Source: Candidatus Electrothrix aestuarii
GTDB taxonomy: Bacteria > Desulfobacterota > Desulfobulbia > Desulfobulbales > Desulfobulbaceae
DNA length: 64,000 nucleotides
Direction of reading: 5' to 3'
Assembly (NCBI GenBank): GCA_032595685.2
Contig: CP159373.1
Span: forward strand, 1,013,001 to 1,077,000
Part shown: piece by piece, positions 61,762 to 64,000 of the stretch
Position numbering within the stretch: position 1 is the stretch's first letter
Layout of the letters: each line of letters starts with the position of its first letter
Made by a program: the position numbers and the translations under genes
Notes under the pieces: generated by a model
What the model saw: the letters and a program-made list of their open reading frames with translations, nothing else
Databases searched by the model: none
What the model was told of the DNA's origin: nothing

Positions 61762-64000
61762 ATGAAAATTACGCTGCACAAAAAAACACTTATCCTGTTG
61801 ACCATTATATTTATCTGTTGTGGAGGGGCATCGTCGCTTTTTTATTTTACAAATAAGAAAGATATCCAACAGACAACATATATTGCAATACCAGGCCCTT
61901 TAAAAAGTGCCAACGGCCGAGATATGTTCAGAGGCATTACCTTGGCTTTTCAATCTATGCACGAACAGGGGAAGCTCAAAAATATTAAAATAGAATTAAT
62001 CCCTTATAATGAAAAAAACAACAAAGATGCCCTGGAAAATGCTTCAAGAATAGCTGATGAAAACAAGGCACTTGCAGTTATAGGCCATTATACAAACGCC
62101 GGTACTCTTGCAGCCGGGGCAATTTATCGCGACAATGGAATACCGGCTCTCACAGCTTCAGCAGCCGATGAAAAAGTGACACAGGGCAATGAGTGGTATT
62201 TTAAAATTATGCCGGACAGAAGGAGTACTCGGGTTTTACTTGCCTATACTGTAAAAAATTTACTCCTGCGAAATACGGTGAGTATTATCTTTGACAAAAA
62301 CAATTATGGATCGAATCTTGTGCAAAGCTTTGAAAAACAAGCAGAAAAAGCAGGAATCCAGATTAAAAATAAATGGTTTTTTGACAGCGGGGATGAGGAC
62401 AGCGAACACCAGATAAGAGGCATTGTCGGGCGTCTCAGAGCTACCCAAAATCCAGGAACTATATTCTGCGCGCTTTATGCGAATGATGCGGATAATATTT
62501 TTACAGAGTTGCGGTACCCTGGGACCGATTTTCAAATTATCGGACCCAATTCATTCTCTACCCCGTCATTCATTTCTCAATTTAATGAATATCCAAAAGA
62601 AAATGAGACCCCAGGCTACTACACGGATGGGACGTATGCGGTTTCTCCTTTTATTTCATATCTGGCTGATTCTCCTTTGGCCTCTGATTTCAGAAAGAAA
62701 AACATTGACCGTTACGGAACAGAACCATCCTGGGTGACAGCAAATTATTATGATGCAGCCCTGCTTATTGCAAACGCCATAGAACGTGCTGAAATAAAAG
62801 GAAAAGATATAATGGAAGATAGACGAAAACTTAAAAAAGCTTTAAAGAGCTTCAATGAACCAGATAATGCCGTACAAGGCATCACAGGTAAACTGTATTT
62901 TGACCAGGAACGAACTGTCCCCCGGTCATTACAACTCGGCGTTTGGAAACAACATCAATTCCTTCCTGCATATTTTCAATACCAGGAAACAGCAACAGAA
63001 AATGATTCCAAGGTAGTGACCGGCAAACAAGAAATAACCCAACAAAATGTCTCCAAGGATAAAGAGAACACTGGCAACCAACTGGAATTTAACGGCCAGC
63101 AACTGGATAGATATCGTGTTGTATACACGGGAATAGACATCAACCACATATCAAATATTGATATAAAGCAAGGCCAGTTTACTGCGGATTTTTATATATG
63201 GTTCCGTTATATGGGAGATTTTGATGATACGGATATTATATTCCCTGATGCCCTTACCCCTATAGTACTGGGAAAACCTTTCAGCAGCAAAAAAACACAT
63301 GATGGTGCTCACCTTCGTATCTATAAGAAACAAGCTGATTTTATTACCAGTTTAAACCTACAGCCCTATCCACTGGACCACCATAAACTCCGCATACGCT
63401 TTCACCATAGCAAAGAAACGCGAAATCAGCTGATATATGTTCCAGATGTAGAAGGCCTTCCTTTTCTCAGCCGAAAGAATGACCAAGGGCAGTCAATGGT
63501 ACGTACCATACCAGGCTGGAAGGTAAAAGATATCTCCTACTCGCAACTCCTCAAGGCGTCTCCTGGCAACAGCAAGGTACCCTACTCAGTTTTTTCTACA
63601 GACGTGGAAATACAACGACATGACCGTCTTTGTCTTTTAGCCAAAAACTTCTCTCCGGTATTCTTCATTATACTTGCCTGGTATTTTGTTTTTTTTCACC
63701 CCAAAAGCAGAGGTATCTTCCGTTTCCATGCATTATTACTTGCAGTTCTTCTTACTCTCTGGATCCATGTGGTGTATGCTCCCTCTTTACCGGGACAAAG
63801 TATTATTAAAAATATATCATTTGTTCTGTATCTTGCGATAGGAGCGGGGGGACTGACATCGGGAACAATGTATCTTTTCCGCCTCTCCCAAAAAAACAGC
63901 GACCAGACAGACCGATACCTGCTTTGCGCGGGTCAGGTAATGTATTGTGTAGTTACTCTTGGGGGCATATTCTTTGTATTGTACCATGTTCAATCTCTGC
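61762..64000 (+). CDS. Periplasmic-binding domain fused to a pentameric ligand-gated ion channel (3' end outside window)
   Basis: The open frame from ATG 61762 runs off the window after 746 residues. A signal/anchor (LILLTIIFICCGGASSLFYF) is followed by a type 1 binding protein (about 38-430: YIAIPGPLKSANGRDMFRGI, LAVIGHYTNAGTLAAGAIYR, TANYYDAALLIANAI). From about 449 comes a channel-type ligand-binding domain: YRVVYTGIDINHI, FTADFYIWFRYMGDFDDTDI and the Pro-loop LQPYPLDHHKLRIRF (about 533-547). Four hydrophobic segments follow near 632, 655, 683 and 722, the first starting at a Pro (NFSPVFFIILAWYF). This order matches prokaryotic Cys-loop-type channels. The binding protein would act as an added ligand sensor in the periplasm. 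Confidence 0.78.
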   Translation, partial: MKITLHKKTLILLTIIFICCGGASSLFYFTNKKDIQQTTYIAIPGPLKSANGRDMFRGITLAFQSMHEQGKLKNIKIELIPYNEKNNKDALENASRIADENKALAVIGHYTNAGTLAAGAIYRDNGIPALTASAADEKVTQGNEWYFKIMPDRRSTRVLLAYTVKNLLLRNTVSIIFDKNNYGSNLVQSFEKQAEKAGIQIKNKWFFDSGDEDSEHQIRGIVGRLRATQNPGTIFCALYANDADNIFTELRYPGTDFQIIGPNSFSTPSFISQFNEYPKENETPGYYTDGTYAVSPFISYLADSPLASDFRKKNIDRYGTEPSWVTANYYDAALLIANAIERAEIKGKDIMEDRRKLKKALKSFNEPDNAVQGITGKLYFDQERTVPRSLQLGVWKQHQFLPAYFQYQETATENDSKVVTGKQEITQQNVSKDKENTGNQLEFNGQQLDRYRVVYTGIDINHISNIDIKQGQFTADFYIWFRYMGDFDDTDIIFPDALTPIVLGKPFSSKKTHDGAHLRIYKKQADFITSLNLQPYPLDHHKLRIRFHHSKETRNQLIYVPDVEGLPFLSRKNDQGQSMVRTIPGWKVKDISYSQLLKASPGNSKVPYSVFSTDVEIQRHDRLCLLAKNFSPVFFIILAWYFVFFHPKSRGIFRFHALLLAVLLTLWIHVVYAPSLPGQSIIKNISFVLYLAIGAGGLTSGTMYLFRLSQKNSDQTDRYLLCAGQVMYCVVTLGGIFFVLYHVQSL

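Follow-up and report, generated by a model that had tools for sequence, protein, structure and literature searches.

The cable bacterium Candidatus Electrothrix aestuarii encodes a protein, here called A, in which a type I periplasmic-binding protein (PBP-I) domain and a pentameric ligand-gated ion channel (pLGIC) are fused in one chain. The fusion is confirmed, and our analysis supports both halves and their order as given in the original prediction. Based on sequence and predicted fold, A very probably belongs to the pLGIC (Pro-loop) superfamily as a receptor-channel subunit in the membrane, with an extra Venus-flytrap lobe, the PBP-I domain, on its periplasmic side, and computation shows its descent from a family that has retained the PBP-I/pLGIC architecture across several phyla. 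The architecture of gene A is known, though little studied; what varies here is the arrangement, with paired subunits of which one is without M4. The surprising part is a sister clade in which an MscS channel follows the same PBP-I and extracellular (ECD) domains, and this clade matters more than gene A itself. On balance, we favor the view that PBP-I and the pLGIC ECD form a transplantable ligand-sensing module that has been coupled to two unrelated pores, one four-helix and one YnaI-like MscS.

Gene A and its binding lobe

Gene A starts with an ATG at position 61762 of the window, the whole 64,000-nucleotide stretch of DNA analyzed, and according to open reading frame analysis continues without a stop to the window end, coding for 746 aa. 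This is the single open frame described from the sequence before, and its end lies outside the window as was then claimed: the frame runs 3 residues further and then stops, for a full length of 749 aa (L001:4762-7011, L001 being 20 kb of a single-contig genome of 5.11 Mb). The features of the gene are as follows.

61762..64000, + strand: PBP-I/pLGIC fusion gene A; open frame, stop codon ending 11 bases past the window
61762..61857, + strand: N-terminal hydrophobic segment, residues 1-32; hydropathy peak at residues 8-30
61894..62922, + strand: PBP-I domain (Leu/Ile/Val-binding-protein type), residues 45-387; Pfam and sequence match to solved amino-acid-binding proteins
63079..63618, + strand: pLGIC extracellular beta-sandwich, residues 440-619; AlphaFold2 model, Foldseek/VIA, profile A2 against the PDB
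63367..63378, + strand: Pro-loop YPLD, residues 536-539, without Cys-loop cysteines; Pro in 37 of 37 rows
63625..63696, + strand: M1 helix, residues 622-645; DSSP of the model, hydropathy
63712..63777, + strand: M2 helix, residues 651-672, presumed pore-lining; AlphaFold2 model, family counts
63796..63885, + strand: M3 helix, residues 679-708; DSSP of the model
63901..63996, + strand: M4 helix, residues 714-745; DSSP of the model

Residues 1-32 are predicted to be a signal peptide or membrane anchor. The Leu/Ile/Val-type binding domain expected at the N terminus is evident from PF13458 (E=1.7e-28 over residues 45-380) and PF01094 (E=2e-17 over 60-387), the former placing A in the PBP-I/Leu-Ile-Val-binding protein superfamily. 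In a sequence search of the PDB, this half of A matches 3td9, a solved branched-chain amino-acid-binding protein, at 1.8e-19. Ser79 (S79) and Thr102 (T102) of LivJ are presumably contacts to the amino acid and characterize amino-acid binders rather than the PBP-I superfamily as a whole. In the alignment of LivJ with A, the equivalents are Asn and Ala, and these two pocket residues of amino-acid binders are therefore not found in A. Among 42 relatives outside the MscS group, Ser is present at the first position in 35 and Thr at the second in 29; A departs at both from what most relatives retain.

The channel half of gene A

By itself, the channel half of A is hard to recognize. The single sequence has no match to this half in Pfam or NCBIfam, phmmer with A against the PDB returned no significant channel match, and a PF02931 search of the organism's own genome returned nothing, though in one run the control genomes were blank as well. 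Pfam did not find an MscS pore and beta domain in gene A either. The case for a pLGIC therefore rests on the relatives and the predicted fold. The profile search proposed in the original prediction thus fails with one sequence but succeeds with many: alignment A2 (37 rows: the stretch from the window plus 36 relatives whose end is of the pLGIC type) matches pLGICs in the PDB at up to 2.8e-20 (5osa), with GLIC 4ire at 1.9e-18 over profile positions 56-316, reaching the end of M4. Matches to GLIC-type structures through the M4 end have E values of 3e-20 to 4e-17. In total, 317 distinct PDB sequences were matched at E ≤1, the best 60 of the 317 being GLIC, its mutants and chimeras, or chimeric receptors of that family. 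Leaving the simple set aside, 41 loci have an ECD and a pLGIC membrane domain (TMD), and five of these (L046, L078, L094, L095, and L100) are not in A2; as A2 is also without any simple pLGIC, its match to pLGIC structures was not built in that way.

The AlphaFold2 model made from A2 (single chain, no templates, residues 440-746) has a mean pLDDT of 84.1 and a pTM of 0.74, and consists of sandwich strands followed by helices at model residues 183-206, 212-233, 240-269, and 275-306. The best Foldseek match is GLIC 6f16 (E 5.1e-15, probability 1.00, TM about 0.58, rmsd 6.3), and the best 50 are GLIC, GluCl, GABA-A, glycine, 5-HT3, and nicotinic receptors or chimeras thereof, with modest scores among the matches listed (TM 0.45 to 0.61, rmsd mostly 6 to 8). 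VIA aligned 283 residues to GluCl 3rhw (Z 19.2, rmsd 5.6) and gave a Z of at least 8 for 1000 of the 1000 chains passed on from Foldseek. A C-terminal fold unlike the channel, the outcome named beforehand as fatal to the reading, did not occur, as the single-chain model resembles pLGICs.

The Cys-loop-like ligand-binding domain with YPLD and four membrane segments that had been proposed for this region is likewise borne out, the sandwich and helices by the model and YPLD by the relatives: the pattern [YFH]P[FLV][DEG] is present in all 37 aligned rows, with the Pro invariant. The flanking Cys pair of a strict Cys-loop is absent, the ECD of A having zero Cys; six of the 37 rows have one ECD cysteine each and the remainder none.

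The wider family

The 71 loci analyzed were collected in one scan of a species-genome collection using alignment A1 (11 rows) and a single peptide pattern, and are therefore a sample, not a census. They are mainly from Thermodesulfobacteriota and Thiotrichaceae. By profile, 40 encode PBP-I, ECD, and TMD, 16 encode PBP-I, ECD, and MscS, and one (L071, whose frame starts near the contig start) encodes ECD and MscS. Twelve have ECD and TMD, namely 11 simple loci and a split gene from Ca. Electrothrix aarhusensis, and in the last two PBP-I and ECD are cut by a contig end. In the simple loci scanned with Pfam (6 of 11), PF02931 or PF02932 matches below the curated cut-offs. The same scan of L094 found PBP-I and neither PF02931 nor PF02932. 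Three of the 40 fused loci carry PBP-I, pLGIC, and a C-terminal SBP_bac_1 in one chain (L038:2630-6265, L078:1-2961, and L088:2657-6289), and here PF02932 exceeds its cut-off of 28.1 bits, at 32.4, 30.2, and 34.3, respectively; the PBP-I of L078, a protein cut by a contig end, is below the Pfam cut-off. These three have a solute-binding domain on either side of the channel core, PBP-I on one and SBP_bac_1, a PBP-II domain, on the other.

Separate ECD and TMD profiles of the four-helix members were run on a control set of 82 proteins, comprising 17 MscS-fused members, 11 simple ones, 9 PF02931-positive pLGICs of the class, A, B (the product of a second gene, described below), and 43 other members; A and 36 of these 43 also contributed to the A2 profiles, with L070 absent from that of the TMD. 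The ECD profile matches 82 of 82, the nine class pLGICs weakly (5.7e-6 to 0.03). The TMD profile matches A and B, the simple loci (11 of 11), the class pLGICs (9 of 9, L028 at no better than 0.008), and 41 of the 43 other members, but none of the 17 MscS-fused proteins. No shuffled (0/410) or reversed (0/82) sequence reached E 10 with either profile; the relatives therefore carry the channel half beyond chance. At E ≤1e-10 the A2 profile has matches in 20 of 257 genomes of the class, 7 of the 20 being PF02931-positive too, while PF02931 matches in 9 of 242 genomes of the class.

A second subunit gene beside A

On the same strand 3' of A lies a gene for a PF03601 membrane protein (1.2e-44), which we take to be UPF0324/YeiH, followed by the paralogue B and a DUF697 gene. 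B (L001:9068-11302, 744 aa, PF13458 1.1e-43) is found about 2 kb downstream of A, and the two proteins are 29% identical over residues 16-689. B is without the segment after M3 and hence has no M4; the TMD profile reaches only position 81 of 122, and only two of three helices stand out in its hydropathy. At the equivalents of LivJ S79 and T102, B has Ser and Thr. In three cable bacteria the second of these positions is Ala in every A copy and Thr in every B copy, while the first, in the window genome, Ca. Electrothrix aarhusensis, and Ca. Electrothrix gigas, is Asn, Asn, and Ser in the A copies and Ser, Asn, and Ser in the B copies.

The closest relative found for A is from the same genus group, Ca. 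Electrothrix aarhusensis (L033). Its A is split across overlapping frames (L033:2553-4001 and L033:3926-4933), either by a sequencing error or by a real break; its B, 210 bases from A, also stops after M3. In total, an ECD partner ending after M3, as judged from sequence ends, was found in 4 of 19 groups (the window, L033, L039, and L043), though the odd tail in L043 may be a sequencing error.

We consider it probable that the working channel contains the tandem subunits A and B together. Neighboring ECD genes were counted at the 40 loci where a single frame encodes PBP-I, ECD, and TMD; 26 of these loci have flanks of more than 1.5 kb on both sides. A second ECD gene is present in the available flanks of 15, on the same strand in 14 and divergent in one. 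Such adjacent same-strand pairs recur across distant lineages, with gaps mostly of -99 to 526 bases, which argues against A and B being independent channels with different ligands instead of one hetero-oligomer. Independence is the less probable of the two, but some observations favor it. Another membrane-protein gene sits between A and B in the window genome, and 25 of the 40 loci are without an adjacent ECD gene in the available flanks, some of which are incomplete. The two genes of Ca. Electrothrix gigas are divergent, and the B-like one (L018:10128-11984, + strand) has a frame that stops just before M1; a profile match there spans two stop codons, so the gene may be decayed, or the frame may code for a soluble form.

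Other genes around the cluster include three for DUF697 proteins (window:53623-54117, - strand; window:58356-58937, - strand; and L001:11280-11759, + strand), the last of which overlaps the end of B. A DUF697 gene follows B in both the window genome and L033, and another follows the channel gene in L045. Near the channel genes, window:54162-56990 (- strand) encodes a fusion of PBP-I with SBP_bac_5 (PF13458 4.3e-44, PF00496 1.9e-57), and PBP-I-matching frames are also found upstream in L036, L039, L041, L043, L046, and L101. The gene directly upstream of A (window:60386-61576, + strand) has a DDE transposase match (PF01609 1.1e-6).

Proposed working and the pore helix

Beyond fold and architecture, we infer the mechanism from the biology of pLGICs and PBP-I proteins. 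Five subunits would assemble, and a small solute would close the PBP-I lobe or bind the sandwich. The resulting movement would open or close a central pore lined by M2, such that a nutrient signal in the periplasm would be turned into ion flux. If A and B work together, labor may be divided between them, A providing the full four-helix membrane domain with an altered pocket and B an amino-acid-type pocket without M4.

Positions in M2 are customarily given in prime numbering, here counted backwards with the Pro in the M2-M3 turn set to 23', in 36 rows (L070, with a masked stretch in M2, is excluded). A has F-1', R0', H2', L6', L9', and W13', with L22'-P23' in the loop. In the family, R or K at 0' is present in 32 of 36 rows, L9' in 21, H15' in 26, and P23' in 28, and A has R0', L9', and the L22'-P23' turn among the conserved features. 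No Glu stands at -1' or -2' in A to indicate its selectivity. Judging from the sequence of its very hydrophobic M2, a homomer of A might conduct poorly, and A may not conduct alone.

These traits, W13' and H2' in particular, would also suit a non-conducting receptor, in which the pLGIC fold is an anchoring or signaling scaffold and the PBP-I lobe senses for a partner. The absence of anything after M3 in B, in its Ca. Electrothrix aarhusensis counterpart, and in the second partners in L039 and L043 (the latter with the reservation above) points the same way, as does the further solute-binding domain after M4 in L038, L078, and L088. However, family-wide loss of the pore should have let R/K0', L9', and the M2-M3 LP turn drift, and their retention in most relatives makes this explanation unlikely compared with an ion channel.

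A sister clade fused to MscS

In 17 of the 71 loci, including L089, L096, L073, L085, and L066, the PBP-I domain and pLGIC ECD are kept and a YnaI-like MscS channel replaces the pLGIC membrane domain. A cyclic-nucleotide-binding domain is present in 11 of these 17 by our own profile; bCNG channels are likewise MscS proteins with a cyclic-nucleotide-binding domain. Pfam found PF13458 and PF00924 in 8 of 8 MscS-fused members and PF00027 in 7 of them, while in another set of 8 proteins it found PF00924 in 5, of which 3 also had PF00027.

Profile A1 mixes four-helix and MscS members; its matches were weak to pLGICs (1.1e-4 at best) and to MscS (no better than 0.09) alike, and it was therefore split into A2 and A3. 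A3, made from 16 MscS-fused members (L074 was left out), matches MscS in the PDB at 6.7e-22 over positions 271-525 and YnaI over 216-525. The model predicted from A3 (pLDDT 69.9, pTM 0.37, with parts of the sandwich below 50) resembles MscK, MscS, and YnaI mainly over 196-526 and GLIC over 2-336 (Z 10.9). Together, the ranges of the profile and model matches place the pore exchange at the ECD/TMD junction. The idea that the MscS-fused proteins might keep pLGIC M1-M3 was set aside, as the TMD profile matched none of the 17 and YnaI aligns to their first helices. Given the moderate model, it is chiefly profiles that identify their sandwich as that of a pLGIC. All 17 MscS-fused members match the four-helix ECD profile; as counter-evidence, an ECD profile of the MscS set matches every one of the 11 simple loci but none of the 9 class pLGICs that are PF02931-positive.

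In ECD trees, 18 MscS-fused rows (the 17 and one from genome G059) form one clade, with an SH-aLRT of 99 in a quick tree (73 rows) and support of 100/100 in a careful tree (71 rows), where the clade is also present in 100% of 200 bootstrap trees. L102, cut by a contig end, is in neither tree, and the B of the window genome, a long branch, and L070 are in the quick tree only. Four phyla are represented among the MscS-fused proteins: Thermodesulfobacteriota, Pseudomonadota, Spirochaetota, and Chloroflexota. The G059 protein (990 aa) is encoded in a single-contig genome from the genus group of the window genome, and an assembly artefact is therefore unlikely. When the quick tree is rooted on the simple loci, the four-helix L094, L095, and L100 branch first (SH-aLRT 90 for the rest, not starred), and with this root the MscS form is derived. 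Both forms occur in Desulfococcaceae bacterium HSG8, where a four-helix gene (L075:2723-4939) and an MscS-fused one (L075:6207-8927) lie 1.3 kb apart on one strand.

A covalent PBP-I lobe accompanies the pLGIC membrane domain at 40 loci and MscS at 16, and the persistence of the PBP-I/sandwich pair despite exchange of the pore fits, without proving, a coupled sensing module. It also weighs against the lobe only concentrating or delivering ligand to an ordinary pLGIC site with no mechanical coupling to gating, an improbable alternative, albeit one close to what Tasneem et al. (2004; PMC549065) proposed for fused and operonic binding proteins. That the four helices of A are a remnant of an MscS-type fusion and not a pLGIC membrane domain, an idea raised by the MscS domains behind the same sandwich in the first distant relatives found, is very improbable, as the TMD profile separates the MscS-fused proteins from the class pLGICs (0/17 against 9/9), GLIC is the top match through M4, and the MscS-fused members are one clade.

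If the transplantable-module view is correct, the MscS-fused form would be a ligand-gated MscS channel driven by a neurotransmitter-receptor-type domain, and a single polypeptide would combine the five-fold tendency of pLGICs with the seven-fold one of MscS. Were the same sensing domains to gate an unrelated pore, both the transmission of movement from a Cys-loop-type ECD to a channel and the possible opening of an MscS pore by a ligand would become directly testable.

Comparison with known systems

We are aware of no MscS protein in which a pLGIC sandwich accompanies PBP-I, and among the matches listed in searches of open-licence PMC papers, judged by title and abstract opening, there was no report of a pLGIC-domain/MscS fusion. 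YnaI and MscS resemble the pore part of the sister clade, while gene A is without an MscS part.

Among bacterial pLGICs, GLIC shares with A the Pro-loop core, the sandwich, M1-M4, and the LP turn between M2 and M3, but it has no PBP-I lobe, and A alone shares too little sequence with it for detection without a profile. DeCLIC (6v4a) resembles A in being a bacterial pLGIC with an additional periplasmic N-terminal domain; it was not significantly matched by profile A1 (E 2.8), and another pLGIC, of 609 residues (PDB 9ftg-9ftj), has an E of 2.6 to the same profile. The N-terminal lobes of DeCLIC, unlike PBP-I, are reported to resemble regulatory regions such as calcium-binding domains (PMC12664993), and DeCLIC is called the only pLGIC with a characterized N-terminal domain (PMC9897478, PMC12664993). 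Animal ionotropic glutamate receptors also have a PBP-I lobe ahead of the channel; in them, unlike in A, it is a PBP-II domain into which the pore is inserted (PMC549065).

The PBP-I/pLGIC architecture itself is not new, having been known since 2004. Tasneem et al. described PBP-I ahead of the ligand-binding domain in Magnetospirillum magnetotacticum and Bradyrhizobium japonicum, and proposed for such PBP-I domains a role in concentrating or sensing the ligand and for the channels a role in chemotaxis (PMC549065). These ART-LGICs are like A in their order of N-terminal PBP-I, ligand-binding domain, and four-helix channel. Compared by description, those of 2004 are alphaproteobacterial (PMC549065), whereas the loci here are mainly from Thermodesulfobacteriota and Thiotrichaceae, are often in tandem, and include some partners without M4. 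With gene A, a cable bacterium carries an intact example of the receptor type predicted in 2004.
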